Source of the DNA: a virus
DNA: 28,377 nucleotides
IMG/VR virus record: IMGVR_UViG_3300042896_000643
Location: 1 to 28,377 of that record
Strand: one strand, 5' to 3'
Positions 105 through 27,861 of the stretch are shown in pieces. The stretch's first letter is position 1. Each line of letters opens with the position of its first letter. The translations under genes were made by a program, and so were the position numbers. The notes below the pieces were generated by a model. The model did no database searches, was not told the DNA's origin, and saw nothing but the letters and a program-made list of their open reading frames with translations.

Positions 105-3100
105 ATGGCTGATCGTTATTGGGTTGGCGGTTCGGGTTCGTGGTCAAGTACAGCTAAGTGGTCAGCCACATCAGGTGGCGCGGGCGGTCAAACTGTCCCA
201 ACTGCGGTAGATAACGTTTTTTTTGATGCTAACTCGGGAACTGCTTCTGCTGTGTATGGGGCGGTTATTGATACCCTTGCAGCTACTTGTTTAAATCTGA
301 CAATCACCCCAGTATCAACAGTTGGGGTAACTCAGATTACCATTTCTGGAACACTGACAATAGTAGGCACGCTGTCCAGTTCAGGTACTTCGGGGAATAA
401 ACGTACTTGGATTCGCGGCACCACATACGGTATTGCCAATAATTTGTCAGTTGCTACGCTTGGAACCTTGACTGATGTTGACTTCCGAGACATCTACGTT
501 GTAGGCTCTGCTGCGCCGATCTCCGGCACTCGTATTGGTGACTTGTGTGGCATCCGTGGCATCACTGCTTCTACACCTAAGACAGTGTATTGGAACTTAC
601 CTGCTGGCGGCAGTTGGTCTTCTAACGCTTGGGCTACTTCATCTGGTGGCGGTGTTAGCACAGACAACTTCCCATTGGCTCAGGATACGGCTGTCATCGA
701 GAACACGGGCATGAATACCTCTGCTACGGTGACAATGAATTCGTTGTCTATGCCATATACGGGTACAGTGGATATGTCCGGGCGCACAACCGCGATGACA
801 TTAACAGTTTCTGGCCCACAAACTATTTATGGTGATTGGAAAAATGGTAGCGGGACAACGATAACTGGAACAGGTGTTTTTTCATTTAGCGGTAGAAACA
901 CTCAAACAATCACAAGTGCAGGTAAGACTTTTACAAACGGGCTTACTATTGACACCTTTGGCGGTACTGTACAACTTGCAGATGCGTTTAATACAAGTTC
1001 AACTATTTTTGTTTACAACGGTACATTTGATACAAAGAACTATAACGTCACTGGTGGAGCTTTTTCTACTAGTTCTTTTTTTGTTAGAAGTATTATTCTT
1101 GGTTCAAGTACCGTTTTAATTACCTCTGTTGGTAGCACTTATAACTTTTCACCAGCGACTAATTTAACATTTAATGCAGGCACTTCTACATTGAGTTGCG
1201 GCTCAACAATTGGTACGTTAATAACTGATGGGGGCTTAACTTTTTACAATATTTCATTTACGGGTACGGTTGCAACGACACATAGTATTTCAGGTGGTAA
1301 CGTATTTAATAACATAACGGTGACTGCACCAGCATCTACTGGTATTTCTGGCCTTACTTTTAGTGGTAACCAAACCATCAACGGCACCCTCACCGTTGCA
1401 GGCGCTTCCGCAGTACGCCGTATCTTCTTGCGCTCTAACACCCTAGGCACTACCCGCACACTAACCGTCAACAGCCTGTCCGCTGATGACTGCGACTTTC
1501 TTGACATTGATATCGCTGGCGCTGCTGCTGGCTCATCGCCTGTTCGTGCTGGTGACTGCGGTGGCAATACAGGCATCACGTTTCCTGCACCTAAGACGGT
1601 GTACTGGAACTTAGCAGGTGCGCAGAACTGGAGCGCTACAGCTTGGGCACCGGGGTCTGGAGGCACACCTGACATTAATCAGTTCCCGTTGGCTCAAGAT
1701 ACAGCAGTGTTTGATGACACAGGAGCGGGCACTTCCATTTCTATCCAGTCGTTTAACATTGGAACCATTGACGCATCTGCTCGGACTACGGCGTTAACAT
1801 TTAGTCCTCTTGGTGGGTTCTCTATGTATGGGAACTTAACATTAAGCAGTGCTATTACAATGTTCAGTACAGCTCAGGCTATAACTTTTTCAGGGAGAGG
1901 CACAACAGCCATTACCAGTAGTGGGGTTGTGATTGGGCGCCCCGTCACCATCGACTGCGGTACAGGCACAGTCCAGCTTGCTGATGCTCTGACGCTTGGC
2001 TCAACACGACTACTGACCTTGACATCCGGCACATTTGATGCTGTGACGTACAACGTGACAACGGGTTTAGTGGCTGTAAGCGGAACAGCAATAAAAACAC
2101 TGAAGATGGGCTCCGGGACTTGGACGCTTGCAGGTACTGGCTCAGTATGGACTTTGGCAAACGTAGGAACCACGTTTTTTAAAGGAACTGCAAATATTGT
2201 TTTGTCTGATACCAGCACAACTGCTCGAACTTTTGGGGGAGGCAATTTCTCCCTTAACAAGCTCACTATCGGCGGTGCTACAGGCACGTCAACTACAACA
2301 ATTAACGACAACAACCAGTTCACAGAACTCGCTTCTACCAAAACAGTTGCCCACACTATTGCCCTTGGTGCAACCGCACAGACCTTTGGCGCTTGGACAG
2401 TCACAGGGACAGCAGGTAACGTAGTCACAGTAACAGGCACAGCCGCCATAACAATAGCAGGCGCTCGGGTATCGGGTGTTGACTACCTTGCTATGAACGG
2501 GACTATCCTTTCAAACACATCCCCCGGTGAGTTCTATTCTGGAGCCAACTCTACAGGCACTGGTGCAAACATCATCAAGACTGCCGCTCCTGCTCCAGTG
2601 ACACGCTATTGGGTTGGTGGGACTAACACATGGGATGCAACTACTACTACCAAGTGGTCAGCATCTTCTGGAGGTGCTGGCGGTGCTTCTGTGCCTACTT
2701 CTGCTGATGCTGTGGTGTTTGATACGCTGTCCAATGCAACGGCTTACACGGTGACTTGTACTGCTACGCAGCTTCGGTGTGGTTCCTTGAACATGGCAGG
2801 CCCGCTCTCGGGTAACGTTACATGGGCTGGCTCTGCTCCTATTGCCATGCACGACAACGTGACCTTGGCTGCTACGGGGATTACTCGGACGTATACGGGT
2901 GCAATTACGTTGTCTGGTTCCAGCACTGGTAAGACGTTTACGACCAACGGTGTAGCTTTGGCTTCAACAACTACGGTTAATGGAGTTGGTTGCGGGTGGA
3001 CTTTGGGCAGCGCTGCAACTATTGGAACACTGGATGTTATAAACGGGTCTTTTGCTACCGCTTCATATTCTTTTTCTGTAGGCAATATTCGGTCTAATTT

Positions 3101-4745
3101 TAGTCATGCAAGATCAATTTCACTTGGAAGTAGTGTATTGACTTTTAGTTCTTTTGGTTCATATCCTATTGATTTTGGTGCATCAGAAAATGAAAGGGCA
3201 AATTTAACTTTCTCTGCGGGTACGTCTCAAATAAACGATCCACGACTATCTCCTGTTTTTATCGGCAACAACCAGACTTTTTACAACTACAGTTTTACCA
3301 GCACGCAGGCTGGCACAGTGACACTTAACGGTTCAAACACCTTCAACAATCTGTCCTTCACTGGCATGGCAGCGGCTGGCCTGAAGAACGTATCTCTCAC
3401 AGCCAACCAAACTATCAACGGCACTCTGACGCTCTCCGCTGGAACTAACGCAACAATGCGGACGTTCTTACAGTCAGACGTTATTGGCACAACACGCACT
3501 CTAACCTGCGCTGCTGTTGCTGCTCCAACAGACGCTGACTTCCGTGACATCACCATTGCTGGCGCTGCGGCTCCTGTCAGTGGTACTCGCTTGGGTGACT
3601 GCAAAGGCAACAGCGGGATTACGTTTGATGCGGCTAAGACTGTGTACTGGAACTTAGCGGGTGGTGGAAGCTGGAGTTCTATTGGCTGGGCTACAACAGG
3701 CGGAGGAACCCCTGCGGTTAATAACTTCCCCCTTGCACAAGACACAGCTATATTTCAATCCACAGGGTTGGATTCAGGAGCTATAGTTACGGTCAACGCC
3801 GCCTACAACATCGGCACGATTAATATGTCAGCCCGGACTGCCAACACGATGACACTGACATTAAGTGCTGCGTTTTCAATTTATGGCAACTGGATTAACG
3901 GCACTGGAACTACGATAAGTGGGACAGCAAGAACAACTTTTGTAGGGCGTGGCAGTCAAACAATTACGAGTGCTGGCAAGACTTTTACGCAAGATTTTAA
4001 GTTGGATAACCCCGGTGGAGAGGTATCTTTACAAGATGCTTTTGTTGTGTCAAACGGATTTAACTTAAATGCTGGGTCATACTATTTGAATAATTACAAC
4101 CATACTTCAACTAATGCAAACGCAGACGGCTTAAACGTCCGATTAATTTCTTTTGGTTCTGGCACTTGGACCGTACCAAACGGGGGGTGGAGCGCAACCC
4201 CCGCAACCAATCTTACAGTCACAGGCACAGGCACAATTAACCTCCCCTCTGCGTCCGCCAAGACTTTTGTAGGTGCGGGTCTTTCCTACTCAGGCATCAC
4301 ACTTAACCAAGGCGGTGCGGGCGCATTGACCATTACAGGTAATAACACCTTTGCAAACATCACGAATACCTCTGGTGTGGCTACATCCATCCTGCTCGGA
4401 ACGACAACGCAGACAGTAGGCACATGGGATGCAACAGGCACTGTTGGCAAGGTGCTGACGGTATCAGGTACTTCCGCTGCTTCTTCTGCTACGCTTATTG
4501 TCACAGGGACACCTTCAGCTACGCTGGACTATCTGACCATCACAGGTGTACGAGCTTATCCACTGGAAACAAAATGGTACGCAGGGGCGAACTCAACTAA
4601 TAACGGATCGCTTGGTTGGTACTTTAAGTCTTTAATTATAAATATAACAAAAAGACTGTACTATGGTGCTATTCCTATTGCATCATTAAAATTTGGCAGC
4701 TTTCCAGTAACTTCAGTGTATTTTGGATCAAAGAAAGTTTTGTAA
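105..4745 (+). CDS. Giant repetitive tail fibre/adhesin-like structural protein
   Basis: A 1546-residue protein very rich in Thr, Ser, Gly, Ala and Asn, with almost no charged stretches, as in extended beta-structured phage tail or surface proteins. It is modular: a Y-W signature (RYWVGG or KTVYWN, followed by a Ser/Gly-rich segment and a D-T-A-V-F-like strand) occurs near nt 118, 588, 1602, 2607 and 3645. After a short first module the period is about 1014, 1005 and 1038 nt, so roughly 335-346 residues per module. Sub-motifs such as NQTINGTLT and DITIAGAAAPVSGTRLGDC recur within modules. The C-terminal 35 residues (RLYYGAIPIASLKFGSFPVTSVYFGSK) are different and may be an attachment or trimerisation tip. 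It lies just before the lysis genes. Receptor binding is likely from position and composition, but no enzymatic domain is visible. Confidence 0.7.
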   Translation: MADRYWVGGSGSWSSTAKWSATSGGAGGQTVPTAVDNVFFDANSGTASAVYGAVIDTLAATCLNLTITPVSTVGVTQITISGTLTIVGTLSSSGTSGNKRTWIRGTTYGIANNLSVATLGTLTDVDFRDIYVVGSAAPISGTRIGDLCGIRGITASTPKTVYWNLPAGGSWSSNAWATSSGGGVSTDNFPLAQDTAVIENTGMNTSATVTMNSLSMPYTGTVDMSGRTTAMTLTVSGPQTIYGDWKNGSGTTITGTGVFSFSGRNTQTITSAGKTFTNGLTIDTFGGTVQLADAFNTSSTIFVYNGTFDTKNYNVTGGAFSTSSFFVRSIILGSSTVLITSVGSTYNFSPATNLTFNAGTSTLSCGSTIGTLITDGGLTFYNISFTGTVATTHSISGGNVFNNITVTAPASTGISGLTFSGNQTINGTLTVAGASAVRRIFLRSNTLGTTRTLTVNSLSADDCDFLDIDIAGAAAGSSPVRAGDCGGNTGITFPAPKTVYWNLAGAQNWSATAWAPGSGGTPDINQFPLAQDTAVFDDTGAGTSISIQSFNIGTIDASARTTALTFSPLGGFSMYGNLTLSSAITMFSTAQAITFSGRGTTAITSSGVVIGRPVTIDCGTGTVQLADALTLGSTRLLTLTSGTFDAVTYNVTTGLVAVSGTAIKTLKMGSGTWTLAGTGSVWTLANVGTTFFKGTANIVLSDTSTTARTFGGGNFSLNKLTIGGATGTSTTTINDNNQFTELASTKTVAHTIALGATAQTFGAWTVTGTAGNVVTVTGTAAITIAGARVSGVDYLAMNGTILSNTSPGEFYSGANSTGTGANIIKTAAPAPVTRYWVGGTNTWDATTTTKWSASSGGAGGASVPTSADAVVFDTLSNATAYTVTCTATQLRCGSLNMAGPLSGNVTWAGSAPIAMHDNVTLAATGITRTYTGAITLSGSSTGKTFTTNGVALASTTTVNGVGCGWTLGSAATIGTLDVINGSFATASYSFSVGNIRSNFSHARSISLGSSVLTFSSFGSYPIDFGASENERANLTFSAGTSQINDPRLSPVFIGNNQTFYNYSFTSTQAGTVTLNGSNTFNNLSFTGMAAAGLKNVSLTANQTINGTLTLSAGTNATMRTFLQSDVIGTTRTLTCAAVAAPTDADFRDITIAGAAAPVSGTRLGDCKGNSGITFDAAKTVYWNLAGGGSWSSIGWATTGGGTPAVNNFPLAQDTAIFQSTGLDSGAIVTVNAAYNIGTINMSARTANTMTLTLSAAFSIYGNWINGTGTTISGTARTTFVGRGSQTITSAGKTFTQDFKLDNPGGEVSLQDAFVVSNGFNLNAGSYYLNNYNHTSTNANADGLNVRLISFGSGTWTVPNGGWSATPATNLTVTGTGTINLPSASAKTFVGAGLSYSGITLNQGGAGALTITGNNTFANITNTSGVATSILLGTTTQTVGTWDATGTVGKVLTVSGTSAASSATLIVTGTPSATLDYLTITGVRAYPLETKWYAGANSTNNGSLGWYFKSLIINITKRLYYGAIPIASLKFGSFPVTSVYFGSKKVL

Positions 4746-5140
4746 TGGACACTGTACTTATTTTTTTATTCTTGGCGCTTCAACTACTGTTGCCAATATC
4801 TGCACACGCTCAATCAGTAATGAAAACTCCATTAAGTTATTCATTAACTGAGTATGGTGTGGTGCTTGGAACAGCTTTACTAGGTGGTGCTGCAAACTGG
4901 TATATCAAAGCTAAGAAAGATCCAAAAGGATTTAGCATAGCTGCGCTTATTGGTGAGCTGTGTGTGTCTGCTTTTGCAGGCGTCATAGCGTTCTGGCTTT
5001 GCGAGAGCTTTGGCGTGCAGCCATTACTGACTGCTGCTGCAGTAGGCATGGCAGGCCACGCTGGTGCCAGGGGATTGGATTGGCTTGAGAGCACTATGCG
5101 CAAGACTGCTGAACGTCGTTTAGGTTTACCCAAGGAGTGA
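4745..5140 (+). CDS. Holin, probably LydA/phage_holin_3 type
   Basis: A 131-residue membrane protein whose ATG overlaps the tail-protein stop (TAATG). Residues 5-22 form a signal-like hydrophobic segment ending in AHA; two or three more hydrophobic segments follow (about 36-53, 64-88 and 92-105), then a charged C-terminus (RKTAERRLGLPKE). The central part, with ALLGGAANWYIK, FSIAALIGELCVSAFAGVIA and GMAGHAGARGLDWLE-like sequence, resembles LydA-type holins, which are usually about 105 residues without the leading segment. A start at the internal ATG near residue 26 would give that length, but the overlapping start is better placed. The endolysin follows at once and has no export signal, so a holin is required here to release it. 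Confidence 0.7.
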   Translation: MDTVLIFLFLALQLLLPISAHAQSVMKTPLSYSLTEYGVVLGTALLGGAANWYIKAKKDPKGFSIAALIGELCVSAFAGVIAFWLCESFGVQPLLTAAAVGMAGHAGARGLDWLESTMRKTAERRLGLPKE

Positions 5141-5144
5141 TCGA

Positions 5145-5570
5145 ATGAACCTTGAACTGACTAAACAACTGCGTCGTGATGAAGACGAAGTATTGACTGC
5201 TTACACAGACTCATTGGGCTACTTGACTATTGGTGTGGGACGTTTGATTGACAAGCGCAAAGGAGGCGGGATCTCTGAAGAAGAGTCTTCTTACTTGTTG
5301 GCCAATGACATCAGGAACAAGACTGCTGCGGTCATCAAAGCATTGCCTTGGGCTGAGCACCTAGAGCCAGCTCGCTTAGGCGTACTGGTGAACATGGCGT
5401 TCCAGCTCGGTATTAACGGTTTGCTTGGATTTAAAACGACTTTAGCTCTAGTACAAGGTGGAAATTACGACCGTGCCGCTGAAGGCATGGATGATTCACT
5501 GTGGTCCAAGCAAACACCGGCTCGCTGTGCGCGCTTGCAAAAGCAGATGAGAACTGGGGTGTGGCAATGA
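5145..5570 (+). CDS. T4-type endolysin (GH24 muramidase)
   Basis: A 141-residue lysozyme that cleaves the MurNAc-GlcNAc bond of peptidoglycan. The catalytic triad of the T4 lysozyme family can be aligned without gaps: Glu13 in LRRDEDEV, Asp22 in AYTDSLGY and Thr28 in LTIGVGR (E11, D20 and T26 in T4). There is no N-terminal hydrophobic segment, so this is a cytoplasmic endolysin depending on the holin upstream rather than a SAR endolysin as in N4 itself. A Shine-Dalgarno AAGGAG lies in the end of the holin gene, just before its stop. The stop overlaps the start of Rz (ATGA). Confidence 0.93.
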   Translation: MNLELTKQLRRDEDEVLTAYTDSLGYLTIGVGRLIDKRKGGGISEEESSYLLANDIRNKTAAVIKALPWAEHLEPARLGVLVNMAFQLGINGLLGFKTTLALVQGGNYDRAAEGMDDSLWSKQTPARCARLQKQMRTGVWQ

Positions 5571-6034
5571 ACGCACTTCTATCTTATTGGCGTGTTGGCT
5601 TGGTAGGCGCAGTGATTGTTGCTGCTGGTGTCTGGCACCTGGCAGACAAATCCAAAGGTATAGACGACGCAGTGGAGCTTGTCAGGGCTGAGTACATCAA
5701 TGAAGCACTTGCTGTTAGTGAAGCAGCACGCTCCAGAGAACAGCAATTAATCACAGCAAACCAGAAAGTTGCAAATGACTTCCAGACTCAAAAGACTCGC
5801 AATGCCGCTGCTGTTGTCGTTAGTACTGGCAAGCTGCGCGACCTCGAAGCCGCCATTGCCAATGCTGGTTCCAGCAGCAGTTATACCGCAAGCCCCAGCG
5901 GAGCTGATGCACCCTTTGCCGCCATCGCCAGTGAATGTGGACGAGCTTTTGTTGCGCTGGACGAATATGCTACAGAGATGGCAAGCACGGCGAGAGCTTT
6001 GCAACAGTATGCCAACGGCTTGCGCTTGAAATGA
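5567..6034 (+). CDS. Rz: Rz-like inner-membrane spanin subunit
   Basis: The ATG at the ATGA overlap with the endolysin gives a 155-residue protein; the frame is open further upstream but that would run inside the endolysin. Residues about 7-24 (YWRVGLVGAVIVAAGVWHLA) form one N-terminal transmembrane anchor, followed by an Ala/Glu/Arg-rich, probably coiled-coil periplasmic domain. This is the typical i-spanin architecture that spans the periplasm to an o-spanin and fuses inner and outer membranes in the last step of lysis. The identification is strengthened by the Rz1 lipoprotein nested in the +1 frame. Sequence similarity among Rz proteins is low, so the call rests on topology and context. 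Confidence 0.85.
   Translation: MNALLSYWRVGLVGAVIVAAGVWHLADKSKGIDDAVELVRAEYINEALAVSEAARSREQQLITANQKVANDFQTQKTRNAAAVVVSTGKLRDLEAAIANAGSSSSYTASPSGADAPFAAIASECGRAFVALDEYATEMASTARALQQYANGLRLK
5775..6029 (+). CDS. Rz1: Rz1-like outer-membrane spanin lipoprotein nested in Rz
   Basis: An 84-residue frame lies entirely inside Rz in the +1 frame. It starts MTSRLKRLAMP and has a hydrophobic segment ending in a lipobox (LVLAS-Cys, Cys about residue 20), then a proline-rich mature part (SKPPLPMLVPAAVIPQAP). Short size, a lipid-anchored Cys, proline richness and nesting in Rz are the hallmarks of the lambda Rz1 o-spanin. A TTG two codons upstream is possible, but the ATG is preferred. It would pair with the C-terminus of Rz across the periplasm. 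Confidence 0.87.
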   Translation: MTSRLKRLAMPLLLSLVLASCATSKPPLPMLVPAAVIPQAPAELMHPLPPSPVNVDELLLRWTNMLQRWQARRELCNSMPTACA

Positions 6035-7757: not shown

Positions 7758-7780
7758 GAGTAATTTAAGTGGTTTTTTTT
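7749..7780 (+). terminator. Rho-independent terminator of the late operon
   Basis: A 9-bp stem (AACCACTTA / TAAGTGGTT) with an 8-nt loop is followed by at least six T on the plus strand. It would end late rightward transcription before the integrase gene. Confidence 0.8.
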
Positions 7781-7879
7781 ATAGCAGGATACGCTTTTAA
7801 AGCCACTCTGAGCCACCCATACCAACCAAGAAAACATAAATACCAACTGGAACAACGCCTAGTTGGTTGTGTTTGTGGC

Positions 7880-9040
7880 ATGATGACCAGCCTTATGGCA
7901 CACGAAAAATTTATCCCATCTACTGGTAATTGGCAATTTACGATCAAGAGGGCAGGGCTTTTACCAAAACCTTTGTACTTGACGTTCAACGACAAAGCCG
8001 CAGGTCTTGCTTACTGTCAGCGCATTGAAGCTTTGCTGGACAAGGGCATTGTTCCTTCAGAGTACCAAACTCAAATCAAAGCCATGAGCATGGTAGATCT
8101 GGTTCGTGAGTACGAAAGCAATGCTCACCCTTCTCAGAAAGACAAGTCAGCCATTGGCACGTTGTTATTGCGGTGGGGTAAAACCCCCCTGACTGCTTTT
8201 AACGTGCGCTGGGTAGACGCTTGGATTGATGAGATGAAGCGAGTGGACAAGATTTCACCTGACACTATTCGGTCTAAGGTAGGTGCTTTGGCTCGGTGTA
8301 CAGACTGGGGCGTCAGAAAAGGATTGCTGGTAATGCCAGATCATCCTTTTAGAACGCTGCCTGATGGTTACTCGCAGTACACAGTCCAAGATAAAGCTTT
8401 GGCAGGTGTGGCGCGAGAAGACATTGAGCGTGATAGACGCCTGGAAGACGGTGAATACGAAAAGATTTTGACCATCATTGATGGTGGTGTGTTGCCCCGT
8501 AAGCAACGACCTTACAGTATTGAATACGTTGCTGCTACACGCACACTGTTTATTTTGGCAGTGGAGTCTGCAATGCGTTTGCAAGAAATGTACACATTGA
8601 CGTTAGATCAAGTGAAATTTAGCAAACGAACTGTGTTTTTAGAAAAAACCAAAAATGGTGACAAACGGCAAGTGCCATTGAGTACAGTGGCAATGTCTAC
8701 GCTTAAAGATTACTTAAAAGTGCGGGTGCTGCCAGAAGGTTCTAAAGAAGATGCTTTGTTTCCATGGTGGAATGGCACGATGACACCTTTGTACTTGCGC
8801 GTGATGAGTGCAGAGATGTCCAAGTTGTTTTGCAACACCCGCAGTCCGGGCATCTTTAAAGCAGCAAGCTGTTTGGATTTAAAGTTTCATGACTTGCGCC
8901 ATGAAGCGACGTGTCGTTTGTTTGAACGAACGACGCTCAGTGACGCAGAAATCATGAAGATTACAGGCCACAAATCAATGAAGATGCTTTTACGTTACGC
9001 AAATCTCAGAGGTTCTTCGCTTGCGCAAAAGATGTGGTGA
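7880..9040 (+). CDS. int: Tyrosine-family site-specific integrase
   Basis: A 386-residue recombinase carrying all the expected catalytic residues: Arg233 in ESAMRLQE, the beta-hairpin Lys at 256/258 in EKTKNG, His337 and Arg340 in FHDLRHE, His364 in TGHKS and Tyr373 in RYANLR, the nucleophile that forms the 3'-phosphotyrosyl link. Residues about 65-170 are the core-binding SAM-like domain and the first 60 an arm-binding-type domain. The frame is open up to a GTG inside the terminator T-run, but ATG at 7880 (followed by ATG at 7883) is the first plausible start; the Shine-Dalgarno is weak. It lies directly beside the tRNA-derived attP. Expression must come from a promoter downstream of the terminator, which I could not assign. 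Confidence 0.93.
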   Translation: MMTSLMAHEKFIPSTGNWQFTIKRAGLLPKPLYLTFNDKAAGLAYCQRIEALLDKGIVPSEYQTQIKAMSMVDLVREYESNAHPSQKDKSAIGTLLLRWGKTPLTAFNVRWVDAWIDEMKRVDKISPDTIRSKVGALARCTDWGVRKGLLVMPDHPFRTLPDGYSQYTVQDKALAGVAREDIERDRRLEDGEYEKILTIIDGGVLPRKQRPYSIEYVAATRTLFILAVESAMRLQEMYTLTLDQVKFSKRTVFLEKTKNGDKRQVPLSTVAMSTLKDYLKVRVLPEGSKEDALFPWWNGTMTPLYLRVMSAEMSKLFCNTRSPGIFKAASCLDLKFHDLRHEATCRLFERTTLSDAEIMKITGHKSMKMLLRYANLRGSSLAQKMW

Positions 9041-9265
9041 GCCACTGACAGCGTGCAATGGACCGCCCATACGGCGTTGACTGGTTTGTGTTGATATCAG
9101 TCGTTCAATGTATTGCATGACATCGACCAACAGTAATACGTAAGCACGGCCAATCTTGGCTGCTGGCAAAGTACCAGCATCAATAAGTTTTAGTACGGTG
9201 TTGATGTGCACGTTCATGAGTTCTCCCGCTTCTGGTACTGATAAAGTTGATTTAACAAAGGTCAC
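8990..9265 (-). CDS. Excisionase-like / MerR-type HTH protein
   Basis: A 91-residue protein with LSVPEAGELMNVHINTVLKLIDAGTLPAAKIG, the winged-helix pattern of the HTH_17/excisionase family (helix-turn-helix followed by the wing residues that set the phage Xis fold). GTG is chosen as start because AAAGGA lies at the right distance upstream; the overlapping ATG would stop at once. The C-terminal tail overlaps the 3' end of the integrase by 51 bp in convergent orientation, so int and xis transcription oppose each other. It probably bends attachment-site DNA and directs excision, although a transcriptional role is equally possible for this fold. Confidence 0.7.
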   Translation of the reverse strand: MTFVKSTLSVPEAGELMNVHINTVLKLIDAGTLPAAKIGRAYVLLLVDVMQYIERLISTQTSQRRMGGPLHAVSGSPHLLRKRRTSEICVT

Positions 9266-22540: not shown

Positions 22541-22578
22541 AAAAAAAAAGTGGACACACCTTTTCAGGTATGTCCACT
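22541..22578 (-). terminator. Strong terminator after the RNAP subunit 2 gene
   Basis: On the minus strand a 12-bp stem with one mismatch (AGTGGACATACC / GGTGTGTCCACT) and a short loop is followed by nine T. It closes the early RNAP transcription unit. Confidence 0.9.
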
Positions 22579-22624: not shown

Positions 22625-23863
22625 TTAACTTAAGGCGTAGTTGCTGCCACGAATGTGGTCAGCTAAGTCATAGGTCATCTTTGGGAATACAAATGGTTTG
22701 TTATGTACTTGGCTAAGCAAGTCATCTAACACCATAGATGCCGCTATCTCCGCCAAGATCTCACGATACTGGCTTCGCACTGCATTGAGGTTGTTTGGAT
22801 GAGCTTTGAACTCATCGTGAACAGTTACCAATGCAAACGGTGCGTACTCCGTCATGCTTTCTGTCATGTCCCACAAGGCTTCTAAGTACTCATCACTGAG
22901 GTACTTGACGTTGTCAGCATTCAAGTGAGGCAGGATGACTGCACTGGCTAAAGTACTACGTTCATACTGAGCAATGTAATACGCTACCTTGCCGTATGGG
23001 TTGCTTACTTGAGCAGAGTCGTCGTGCAAACGATCAACCCGCTCATCACCCAACAGTTTGTTGACAGTGTCAATCATGTAGGCGTCATAGTTGCAACGGC
23101 GGTGCATCTCACGCAGCACAAAGGCGTCCATGGAGTGAACGACATTGGCTGCATTGCTTAGGCCATGACGTGCACCCAAGTTCTCATAGAACTCGTAAGT
23201 GAAGGTGGCATGGTCGAGTTCATCGACTTCAATGCGTACTTCTCTTTTGTTCATGACTTTGACCTTGGCATCAAACCCATCTGGCAGCTTCCACTCATGG
23301 ATCAAGCCCCATGGTTTCCAGCTACCCAACAGCTCTTGCAGCAACTGCCATGCGCCTGGTGCCACTTCATTGGCTGCTTGGTAGAAAGCATCTAGCTCAG
23401 GTGTGTCTTCCCCGAAGATCTGCTTGGGCATGGCTTTGGAGCCGTAGAAAGAGGTCATTAAGCTTTGCTTTGCATCAGCTCGGCTGATGTCAACGCTGTT
23501 GCCTAAGATGCCACTCATCACTTGTGTGGTGTAGGTGTAAGCATCAGCTCTTTCATTGGGGTTAACCAAGCCTGTCGCTGTAGCGCCTTTGACACAGCCT
23601 GTGAGGACTGACATCAACTGAATGCCCGAGCAACAAGCATCCAAGCCTACCATGTGGCCACTGGGAACGCCTGCTTGGGCTTTACGCACAGCTTGCATAG
23701 CCTTGTTGTACAGGGGCTTGGTTTCAGCTTGTTCAGCCAATGCTTCCAAGTTGTGCAAGTTGTCTGTAGCCCACTGAATACGCTCTTCAAAGACTAACTT
23801 GTCGTGGCCAAACTGGTTGGCCAAGTCGATCAGCAGGTACTGCCATCCGGTAAATGTTTTCAT
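22625..23863 (-). CDS. T7-type RNA polymerase, C-terminal half (N4 RNAPII subunit 2-like)
   Basis: 412 residues that align with the palm, fingers and C-terminal foot of T7 RNA polymerase, beginning at GWQYLLIDLANQFGHDK (T7 near residue 450). Catalytic residues are all present: Asp75 in LDACCSGIQ (T7 Asp537), Lys132 and Tyr140 in the O-helix-like RADAKQSLMTSFYGS (Lys631, Tyr639), and His349-Asp350 in VHDEF (His811-Asp812). The end NYALS matches the T7 terminus position (FAFA). It lacks the promoter-recognition and thumb regions, which lie in the separate gene upstream. N4 gp16 has the same length (about 404) and division. It has its own Shine-Dalgarno AAGGAAT. It should transcribe middle genes as a heterodimer with the N-terminal half. 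Confidence 0.9.
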   Translation of the reverse strand: MKTFTGWQYLLIDLANQFGHDKLVFEERIQWATDNLHNLEALAEQAETKPLYNKAMQAVRKAQAGVPSGHMVGLDACCSGIQLMSVLTGCVKGATATGLVNPNERADAYTYTTQVMSGILGNSVDISRADAKQSLMTSFYGSKAMPKQIFGEDTPELDAFYQAANEVAPGAWQLLQELLGSWKPWGLIHEWKLPDGFDAKVKVMNKREVRIEVDELDHATFTYEFYENLGARHGLSNAANVVHSMDAFVLREMHRRCNYDAYMIDTVNKLLGDERVDRLHDDSAQVSNPYGKVAYYIAQYERSTLASAVILPHLNADNVKYLSDEYLEALWDMTESMTEYAPFALVTVHDEFKAHPNNLNAVRSQYREILAEIAASMVLDDLLSQVHNKPFVFPKMTYDLADHIRGSNYALS

Positions 23864-23903
23864 GTTAATTCCTTAAAGGTAATGGTTTTGTGAATGAAAT
23901 CTG

Positions 23904-23933
23904 TTGACACGTGGCATACTGATTTCCTTTATT
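23904..23933 (+). promoter_or_regulatory. Sigma70-like promoter for the lipoprotein gene
   Basis: A perfect -35 TTGACA is followed after 18 bp by TTTATT as a weak -10, ending about 14 bp before the lipoprotein ATG. It would allow the host polymerase to express this gene independently of phage polymerases, for example in a lysogen. Confidence 0.5.
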
Positions 23934-23946
23934 TACAGGTCACGTG

Positions 23947-24390
23947 ATGCCTTCTTACTATTTGGCTTTATTGCCCGCTCTTGCTTTAGCTCTTGTTGGC
24001 TGTGCCAGCTCTACAATCAAGCCCATATACACAGGCCGTGATTTGATTTCAATTGCAGAAATTGATTACTTTTCTGAAAAATGCAGCCGTCAAGGACGCA
24101 TGGCTCTTGAAACAGCTGCCTATGGAAAACGCATCGTTTCTGAGGTTATGCAGAATTACCAAGTTGATATGCGCGAGTTTGAGCAAAACAAAGCACACAT
24201 CAACTCTTTTAATGCTGGAAACCAAGAGCTTTGCAACCAAGTCTCTTTAATGATTCTTAACATCAAAGGTAAGGATGATGCTAAGAAAAGCAGTGACTCT
24301 GCTTCTCAGGCTATGCCGCAAATACCATTCATGCCTACCAATACCAGATGCAATACAGCCTTTGGTCAGACTTTTTGCACCTCTTACTGA
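23947..24390 (+). CDS. Lipoprotein moron between the two RNAP genes
   Basis: 147 residues: a signal peptide (MPSYYLALLPALALALVG) ends in the lipobox LVGC, so Cys19 should be lipidated and the protein attached to a membrane. The mature part is polar and helical (YFSEKCSRQGRMALETAAYGKRIVSEV) and has a Cys-containing C-terminus (TRCNTAFGQTFCTSY) with two Cys able to form a disulfide. It is the only plus-strand gene between 9 and 28 kb, is inserted in the opposite direction between the two halves of the RNA polymerase and overlaps the 3' end of the N-terminal half by seven bases. Own promoter plus surface location suggest lysogenic conversion or superinfection exclusion, an inference. Confidence 0.8.
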   Translation: MPSYYLALLPALALALVGCASSTIKPIYTGRDLISIAEIDYFSEKCSRQGRMALETAAYGKRIVSEVMQNYQVDMREFEQNKAHINSFNAGNQELCNQVSLMILNIKGKDDAKKSSDSASQAMPQIPFMPTNTRCNTAFGQTFCTSY

Positions 24391-25295
24391 GCAGGCACGC
24401 CTTGGATTAGCTCTGCATCAGCCAGCTCAAGCATCGCCTTTTTGAAGGCAGATCCTTGGGTGTTGATGTGGTAGCCGTGAGAGTAAATACGCCCACGTTT
24501 ATCTACCTTGTGGGTAAGATAAAACTTATTGCCTTGCGTAGCCATGAGGTGATAGAAGTGGTAGCTTTGCTTCTTAAAGTGTGCCCAGCTTTCTTCTTTG
24601 TCTTGAGTATCCAAGTCAAAAGTAGGCATCTCTTCTACAGTACTTAAGAAGTCTGTATCTAGCTTGAGTGCTACCTTATTCATAATGTTCAGAGTATCTA
24701 TACAGATATCCCCATCATGATGATTACCTGACCCCAGTATCAATGAATCGTTATGGGTGAGATACCCTGAAGAGTAGTTATGGGTTAACTCTAAAGGCTC
24801 ACACACCATAGGTGGTAAGAACTGACTGTTATCAATAAACATCTTTAGTTCATCTGGCAATGGAATACAAGATACCACCATCAAGCTGGCATTTGGGCCA
24901 TCTTTAGTTATATCAAATGCATCTGTATTGCACAGTACAGCCATTAGTTCAGCTACAGTAGTAATAGCTTCTGTCCTATCACTGAACTTTAGTCTCGATG
25001 CCATCTGTGATGACACTGAGGTAAATAGTTCAGGACGCTGACAGTACGCTATGCCTACAAACATGTCCATCACCAAGGCTGGTATGTCCATGTTCTTAAG
25101 CTGCACTACACGACGCATCTTGGAGTCGTAGTAAGTTCCATTCATGTAATCTGTGGCCAGTTCAATGCCTTGAGCAACTTTATCTTGCATAAAGCTACTG
25201 GCTTCAATAGATGTACGTATTTTTACGTCAATATGTTTACGGTTGTAACGTTTTTCGTTAATTTCCTGAACAACTATCTCGCGCATGGTTTCCAT
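24384..25295 (-). CDS. T7-type RNA polymerase, N-terminal half (N4 RNAPII subunit 1-like)
   Basis: The ATG at 25295, seven bases after AAGGAAC, gives 303 residues. The last 50 residues contain KFYLTHKVDKRGRIYSHGYHI...AMLELADAELI, matching T7 RNAP around D-W-R-G-R (Asp421-Arg425) and its LAKGKPIG strand; here D265-K-R-G-R269. The rest corresponds to the thumb and part of the N-terminal domain, shorter than in T7 (about 300 against about 450 residues). The protein stops at QGVPAQ exactly where the C-terminal half begins in T7 numbering, so together they make one complete enzyme. N4 gp15 has a similar size (about 269). Promoter recognition should reside here. Confidence 0.87.
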   Translation of the reverse strand: METMREIVVQEINEKRYNRKHIDVKIRTSIEASSFMQDKVAQGIELATDYMNGTYYDSKMRRVVQLKNMDIPALVMDMFVGIAYCQRPELFTSVSSQMASRLKFSDRTEAITTVAELMAVLCNTDAFDITKDGPNASLMVVSCIPLPDELKMFIDNSQFLPPMVCEPLELTHNYSSGYLTHNDSLILGSGNHHDGDICIDTLNIMNKVALKLDTDFLSTVEEMPTFDLDTQDKEESWAHFKKQSYHFYHLMATQGNKFYLTHKVDKRGRIYSHGYHINTQGSAFKKAMLELADAELIQGVPAQ

Positions 25296-25359
25296 GTGAA
25301 GTTCCTTAGTGTTTAATTTATAAATGAAAGCAATCACCCAAGCGCAGGGAATGCGCCTG

Positions 25360-26046: not shown

Positions 26047-26059
26047 TGGCCGTAGGCCA
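26047..26059 (-). promoter_or_regulatory. Early hairpin site 1
   Basis: On the minus strand TGGCC-TAC-GGCCA (5-bp perfect stem, 3-nt loop). With the loop centre as -11, the predicted +1 is the first base of GGTGG at 26042, 33 bases before the ATG at 26009. It precedes the unit encoding the SLOG protein and both RNAP subunits. Confidence 0.65.
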
Positions 26060-26239: not shown

Positions 26240-26524
26240 TTAGCTCAGGTCGAATCCTGTGCTCTCAGCAGCCTGAGCTGGCTGGAACTCAATGATGAGC
26301 TTGGCCATGATGGCTGTAACCCGAGTTGGGTCTTCATTGAGCCAGTCAAGCATCTGCTTTTCGCTTGGCTTAGCGGCCTTCAATGGGATTGCACCCAATT
26401 TACGACGCTTGGCACCATCTTTCGATGGGAGATACAGGTTCAGGAAACCCTGTGCTTTCCAGCTGTCATTGCTGGTGTTGTTAGAAGAAGACGAAGTTTG
26501 AACAGCGTTTGAACGAAATGTCAT
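26240..26524 (-). CDS. Conserved-looking early phage protein
   Basis: 94 residues. After a Ser/Asn-rich start comes WKAQGFLNLYLPSKDGAKRRKLGAIPLK and EKQMLDWLNEDPTRVTAIMAKLIIEF, a pattern I recall from small proteins in several phage groups. The fold seems to be beta strands followed by a helix; DNA or RNA polymerase binding is conceivable but not shown. The leader contains AAGGAGGAAAAAA, though at some distance from the ATG. Confidence 0.65.
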   Translation of the reverse strand: MTFRSNAVQTSSSSNNTSNDSWKAQGFLNLYLPSKDGAKRRKLGAIPLKAAKPSEKQMLDWLNEDPTRVTAIMAKLIIEFQPAQAAESTGFDLS

Positions 26525-26578: not shown

Positions 26579-26591
26579 TGGCCGTAGGCCA
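26579..26591 (-). promoter_or_regulatory. Early hairpin site 2
   Basis: On the minus strand TGGCC-TAC-GGCCA. The predicted +1 is at 26574 (TTGGGC), giving a leader of about 50 nt to the 94-residue early gene. Confidence 0.65.
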
Positions 26592-26963: not shown

Positions 26964-27019
26964 AACTTCTCCAGAAGTAGGGTGGACGAACGCAAGACAG
27001 CCTTGGTCATTCCACTTAA

Positions 27020-27032
27020 TGGCCGTAGGCCA
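27020..27032 (-). promoter_or_regulatory. Early hairpin site 3
   Basis: On the minus strand TGGCC-TAC-GGCCA, flanked by A and T that extend the stem to six pairs. The predicted +1 at 27015 starts GTGG; the leader to the acidic protein is about 52 nt. Confidence 0.68.
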
Positions 27033-27043
27033 TCAGGTTGTTG

Positions 27044-27307: not shown

Positions 27308-27320
27308 TAGCCGTAGGCTA
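27308..27320 (-). promoter_or_regulatory. Early hairpin site 4 (compensatory variant)
   Basis: On the minus strand TAGCC-TAC-GGCTA. Relative to the other copies both stem partners changed (G-C to A-T), so pairing is kept. The predicted +1 at 27303 starts GTGG; the leader to the two-TM gene is about 47 nt. Confidence 0.68.
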
Positions 27321-27778: not shown

Positions 27779-27824
27779 ATATAACTCCTATAGGATGAAT
27801 GAGATGGGGTACGTACCCACTGGA

Positions 27825-27837
27825 TGGCCGTAGGCCA
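27825..27837 (-). promoter_or_regulatory. Early hairpin site 5
   Basis: On the minus strand TGGCC-TAC-GGCCA with A/T extending the stem. The predicted +1 at 27820 starts GTGGGTACGTACCC, so the leader (about 42 nt) opens with a perfect 12-bp palindrome. Confidence 0.68.
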
Positions 27838-27861
27838 TGTGTAGGGGGGGGTATTAGTGTT

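Follow-up and report, generated by a model that had tools for sequence, protein, structure and literature searches.

The stretch of DNA analyzed here (28,377 nucleotides, referred to as the window) very probably carries a two-part RNA polymerase of the N4 RNAPII type, into whose subunit junction an antisense cassette encoding an accessory lipoprotein was recently inserted. The elements of this region are as follows.

24384–25295, minus strand: RNAP1, 303 aa from ATG, predicted N-terminal subunit and orthologue of N4 gp15, carrying the DxxGR motif
22625–23863, minus strand: RNAP2, 412 aa, predicted C-terminal catalytic subunit and orthologue of N4 gp16, with motifs A, B, and C
25303–25307, minus strand: Shine–Dalgarno AAGGA of RNAP1, 7 nt ahead of the ATG, as read from the sequence
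23870–23874, minus strand: Shine–Dalgarno AAGGA of RNAP2, 6 nt ahead of the ATG and at the edge of the insert, as read from the sequence
23875–24393: inserted segment of ~519 bp, replacing 16 bp (relative L001) or 14 bp (relative L002) in blastn alignments
23947–24390, plus strand: lipoprotein gene, 147 aa, ATG at 23947 (GTG at 23944 possible), lipobox LVGC

The two subunits of N4 RNAPII form an active polymerase that is recruited by gp2. The homology of the window proteins to these subunits and their catalytic residues were established computationally. RNAP1 matched PHROG 2166, "N4-like RNA polymerase", over aa 2–302 (E 9e-103) and N4 RNAP1 (6dt7_A) over aa 122–297 (E 4e-33), and RNAP2 matched PHROG 2051, "RNA polymerase" (E 5e-150), and N4 RNAP2 (6dt7_B) over its full length of 412/412 aa (E 1e-61). 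No match to RNAP1 was found in a scan across bacterial genomes, and the RNAP1–RNAP2 region gave no Rfam match. RNAP1 ends with LIQGVPAQ followed by the stop codon (24384), and RNAP2 starts with MKTFTGWQ (23863). In an alignment of 22 sequences, including T7 RNAP, N4, and other relatives, the boundary between the two proteins lies at about T7 residue 454 without overlap; T7 D421, R423, R425, and Y427 are all conserved in RNAP1, as are D537, R627, K631, Y639, H811, and D812 in RNAP2. The initial annotation had placed the start of RNAP2 at the T7 position next to the QGVPAQ end of RNAP1, had listed Asp537, Lys631, Tyr639, and Asp812 equivalents as conserved, and had described a division as in N4 RNAPII with a separate ribosome-binding site for each half; the alignment, the 6dt7 matches, and the AAGGA ahead of each ATG bear this out.

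The published description of N4 RNAPII agrees with the division and the motifs of the window subunits (PMC4496689). As in the N4 enzyme (gp15 + gp16; EF056009, PDB 6dt7), the polypeptides do not overlap, the T7-like division point is identical, DxxGR lies in the small subunit and motifs A–C in the large one, and the position in the operon is equal. RNAP1 and RNAP2 are thus predicted to be the gp15 and gp16 orthologues of a Schitoviridae phage, and we infer that they would assemble into a single T7-like polymerase for the middle genes. The window RNAP1 is 34 aa longer than its N4 counterpart. The intergenic distance also differs: N4 has 47 bp between its subunit genes, whereas the window has 520 bp holding a plus-strand ORF, the antisense lipoprotein gene, just as had been described earlier.

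The gap is short in the nearest relatives of the window, L001, L002, and L003, whose RNAP proteins are 74–90% identical to those of the window: there, 14, 15, and 29 nt, respectively, lie between the stop codon of RNAP1 and the start codon of RNAP2. In a maximum likelihood tree computed from the concatenated RNAP1 and RNAP2 sequences, the window falls within the fully supported L001–L003 clade (100/100), adjoining L001. As the junction of these nearest relatives measures only 14–29 bp, the insert represents a recent gain in the window lineage. The breakpoints, determined by nucleotide alignment (blastn), are identical against L001 and L002, and repeats that would mark a mobile element were not evident at the insert edges. 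The cassette of ~519 bp would thus have entered a short RNAP1/RNAP2 junction, recently and in the opposite orientation. Its left edge falls directly behind the Shine–Dalgarno sequence of RNAP2, which was therefore kept; with this ribosome-binding site left in place, both subunits should still be translatable.

The order of events on the tree indicates that the insertion is later than the split, so that the insert did not create the two-part enzyme. The two-part state is shared by the Schitoviridae examined and predates the insert. The earlier picture of a polymerase interrupted by an antisense gene is hence not supported, as the polymerase is split family-wide, including the nearest relatives with their 14–29 bp. 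The initial annotation had also proposed a survey of relatives for the inserted gene: L001–L003 lack the insert, and one clear homologue exists, at another locus of another N4-like phage.

The junction was also compared across N4-like phages. Among 23 IMG/VR contigs with both genes, the spacer is nil or near nil in some and 120–1240 bp long with small co-directional ORFs in others, these contigs having been judged by ORF lists alone, in which a short antisense gene could escape notice. The spacer of L027 contains no gene and that of L028/L029 contains one, although their polymerases are nearly identical. The spacers of L004, L006, L007, L010, L015, L023, L025, L026, L030, and L031 contain one to five short ORFs of ~70–95 aa; these resemble tandem copies of a single family, with C-termini of the form ...VPKELRxLxLLLxL. 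Separately, inserts break RNAP2 in both L010 and L011 as well as the L010 DNA polymerase (L010 5013–6000, L054 7190–7756; L011 4455–5566), and the DNA polymerase insert encodes an HNH-like ORF; homing endonucleases also lie inside RNAP2 of several annotated phages.

In 24 of the 25 annotated phage records, spacer genes are either missing or only co-directional, up to about nine of them. The exception is the Agrobacterium phage OLIVR1 (NC_055840), which has six antisense genes between RNAP1 and RNAP2, band 7-like membrane proteins being among their products. OLIVR1 resembles the window in having opposite-strand genes at this place, but its gap is 4.2 kb long and mixes co-directional with antisense genes, and a tblastn search across the phage collection revealed no lipoprotein of the family seen in the window. 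A single antisense spacer gene is therefore uncommon, yet not unprecedented. In the literature, subunit genes with spacer genes between them, zero to eight in number, are called "G7C-type" (PMC5418858), and insertions at this place have been noted in N4-like phages, roseophages among them (PMC2784036, PMC3915230). The window shares with the G7C type an unrelated gene between the subunit genes (lipoprotein, 23947–24390), but this gene is antisense, whereas the spacer is co-directional in nearly all surveyed records. Comparison with N4 alone makes the arrangement seem rarer than it is: interruptions of the junction have been described before in the family, and the one in the window is a recent insertion of an accessory gene.

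The sites that may govern transcription of the region, together with two genes that bear on the lifestyle of the phage, are listed below.

27824–27838, minus strand: early (vRNAP-type) promoter-like hairpin ATGGCC-TAC-GGCCAT
27308–27320, minus strand: early promoter-like hairpin TAGCC-TAC-GGCTA
27019–27033, minus strand: early promoter-like hairpin ATGGCC-TAC-GGCCAT
26579–26591, minus strand: early promoter-like hairpin TGGCC-TAC-GGCCA
26047–26059, minus strand: early promoter-like hairpin TGGCC-TAC-GGCCA, the last one ahead of RNAP1
22549–22578, minus strand: strong intrinsic-terminator-like hairpin, 13 bp stem and T8, just 3' of RNAP2
23904–23933, plus strand: candidate sigma-70-like promoter TTGACA-18-TTTATT ahead of the lipoprotein gene
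7769–9040, plus strand: tyrosine integrase (PF00589, 4.7e-22)
8990–9265, minus strand: HTH_17 (excisionase-like) ORF beside the integrase

Five TAC-loop hairpins in one orientation were observed in the 25.3–28.4 kb region, where 0.02 would be expected. Each is followed by a TGG-containing stretch, and the same series is found in L001–L003. At the corresponding place, N4 and KP8 have hairpins of the AAGCTGC-TCC-GCAGCTT type, and that of KP8 is annotated as an early promoter; on this basis, we infer that the hairpins of the window are candidate vRNAP early promoters of the phage, with the loop TAC instead of the TCC of N4 and KP8. The TAC loop occurs in the window and L001–L003, and the TCC loop in the more distant L006 and L010 as well as in N4 and KP8; the specificity of the vRNAP promoters seems to have shifted within the window clade. 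The early region also encodes a 94-aa protein (26240–26524, minus strand) that matches PHROG 6271 (toxin; moron / host takeover; E 2e-10).

Leftward early transcripts would start at the vRNAP-type hairpins at 26–28 kb and stop at the 22.55 kb terminator after RNAP2. No early-promoter-like hairpin was found on either strand of the RNAP1–RNAP2 gap. It is plausible that the early transcript spans RNAP1, the insert, and RNAP2, and a transcript running through the insert would include antisense RNA to the lipoprotein gene. The lipoprotein gene itself would most likely have a promoter of its own, used by the host RNA polymerase. The TTGACA-18-TTTATT site ranks second best of 56,662 positions in a scan with an approximate PWM and is absent from the list of a stricter consensus scan; it leaves ~7 nt before the lipoprotein ATG, so that the mRNA would have almost no leader. 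Farther upstream lies a weaker extended -10 site (TGGCATACT), which would yield a normal leader. From the lipoprotein stop to 26459, no terminator-like site was found on the plus strand, so that read-through toward RNAP1 is possible. The overlapping transcription pictured in the initial annotation is thus plausible in view of the positions of the hairpins and the terminator.

These signals could be taken to mean that the antisense gene serves for regulation: the early transcript, being antisense to the lipoprotein mRNA, would silence it during early infection, and the lipoprotein transcript running into RNAP1 would damp polymerase synthesis late in infection or in the lysogen. The convergence of the lipoprotein and RNAP1 genes, whose 3' ends overlap by 7 nt, fits such a device, as do the early-promoter-like hairpins located upstream on the minus strand and missing from the gap, the sigma-70-like site on the plus strand without a terminator-like site up to 26459, and the integrase. 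However, any inverted insertion produces an overlap automatically, the arrangement is seen in one contig only, and the relatives work without the insert; we consider regulation by the antisense gene unlikely. Its extension to a two-way switch of a temperate phage is very unlikely: here, the host polymerase would express the lipoprotein in the lysogen and alter the envelope, its transcript would hinder RNAP1, and the vRNAP early transcript would silence the lipoprotein gene on induction.

The coding nature of the lipoprotein gene was established by computation. The N-terminus of the predicted protein, MPSYYLALLPALALALVGC, is a lipoprotein signal. Among the six frames, that of the lipoprotein alone scores positive for phage codon usage (0.24 per codon, with z 5.5 relative to shuffles; RNAP1 gets 0.15 when excluded from the scoring set), which indicates that the ORF did not arise by chance. 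A search of whole N4-like contigs revealed one clear homologue (E 3e-11, 31–34% identity) in IMGVR_UViG_3300025831_000006, an integrase-bearing N4-like phage. The two proteins share the lipobox, conserved cysteines, and the C-terminal CNTxFGQTFCTxY. The homologous gene does not lie at the RNAP1/RNAP2 junction; it follows the DNA polymerase and integrase genes and is co-directional with the RNAP genes. Starting from this homologue, a weak one was found on the Acinetobacter plasmid CP144467, next to endolysin, adhesin-family, and phage antirepressor genes; this plasmid looks phage-derived. No family match was obtained in Pfam, PHROGs, NCBIfam, PADLOC, or PDB, tblastn detected no homologues in phage and plasmid collections, and pattern scans of IMG/VR and 84,980 genomes gave no match.

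It is highly improbable that chimeric assembly or a spurious ORF accounts for the insert, with RNAP1 and RNAP2 adjacent in the true phage. This would agree with the occurrence of the insert in a single contig and with its absence from the nearest relatives, but not with the phage codon usage in one frame only, the homologue in another N4-like phage, or the exact preservation of the flanking genes and the RNAP2 Shine–Dalgarno sequence at the junction.

The window also contains the following lysis genes.

4745–5140: holin, ahead of the Rz/Rz1-like pair
5145–5570: lysozyme, ahead of the Rz/Rz1-like pair
5501–6034 / 5769–6029, plus strand: Rz/Rz1-like nested pair, the inner one with a lipobox

The least probable reading is that the lipoprotein, being small and encoded on the late-gene strand, is an outer-membrane spanin or another lysis protein moved from the late region; the spanin role was rejected since a separate nested Rz/Rz1-like pair already follows the holin and lysozyme genes, and the lipoprotein has no proline-rich spanin-like sequence. 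Upstream of the lysis genes lies a gene for a repetitive protein of 1546 aa (105–4745, plus strand) without a Pfam or PHROG match, perhaps a tail or surface protein.

The preferred reading remains that of an accessory cassette, the lipoprotein being probably an envelope protein of the moron type. The window also has an integrase, and for this reason the lipoprotein gene was read as an accessory (moron / lysogenic-conversion) gene. Integrase-family matches were found in 5 of the 21 uncultured contigs of the set, two of these matches falling short of the Pfam cut-off; the five include the two contigs that carry the lipoprotein gene. Besides the window, the contigs of L001, L010, L011, and L015 gave integrase matches. 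The IMG identifier of L015 looks like that of an isolate genome. Integrase-bearing N4-like viruses have been described (PMC10654107), and the N4-like phage of the window may be temperate. Our best guess for the lipoprotein is therefore an accessory role or one in lysogenic conversion, the numbers being too small to go further. As for the features of a moron, the segment is inserted relative to close relatives (519 bp for 16/14 bp, and by the tree), and a promoter-like site is present, but no terminator-like site directly follows the gene. The lipoprotein also resembles moron lipoproteins such as Ltp of the S. thermophilus phage TP-J34, an example of a lysogenic-conversion lipoprotein (PMC3952083), in being a small phage lipoprotein of an apparently autonomous cassette in an integrase-bearing phage. 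It might act in a lysogen or in the late phase of infection, for instance in superinfection exclusion.

These results leave the knowledge of the enzyme unchanged, as the polymerase of the window is a plain orthologue of N4 RNAPII. They indicate that N4-like phages continue to acquire and lose genes of both orientations between RNAP1 and RNAP2, the polymerase being neither joined nor disabled, and they link one insertion of this kind to a lineage of N4-like phages that bears an integrase and may be temperate.
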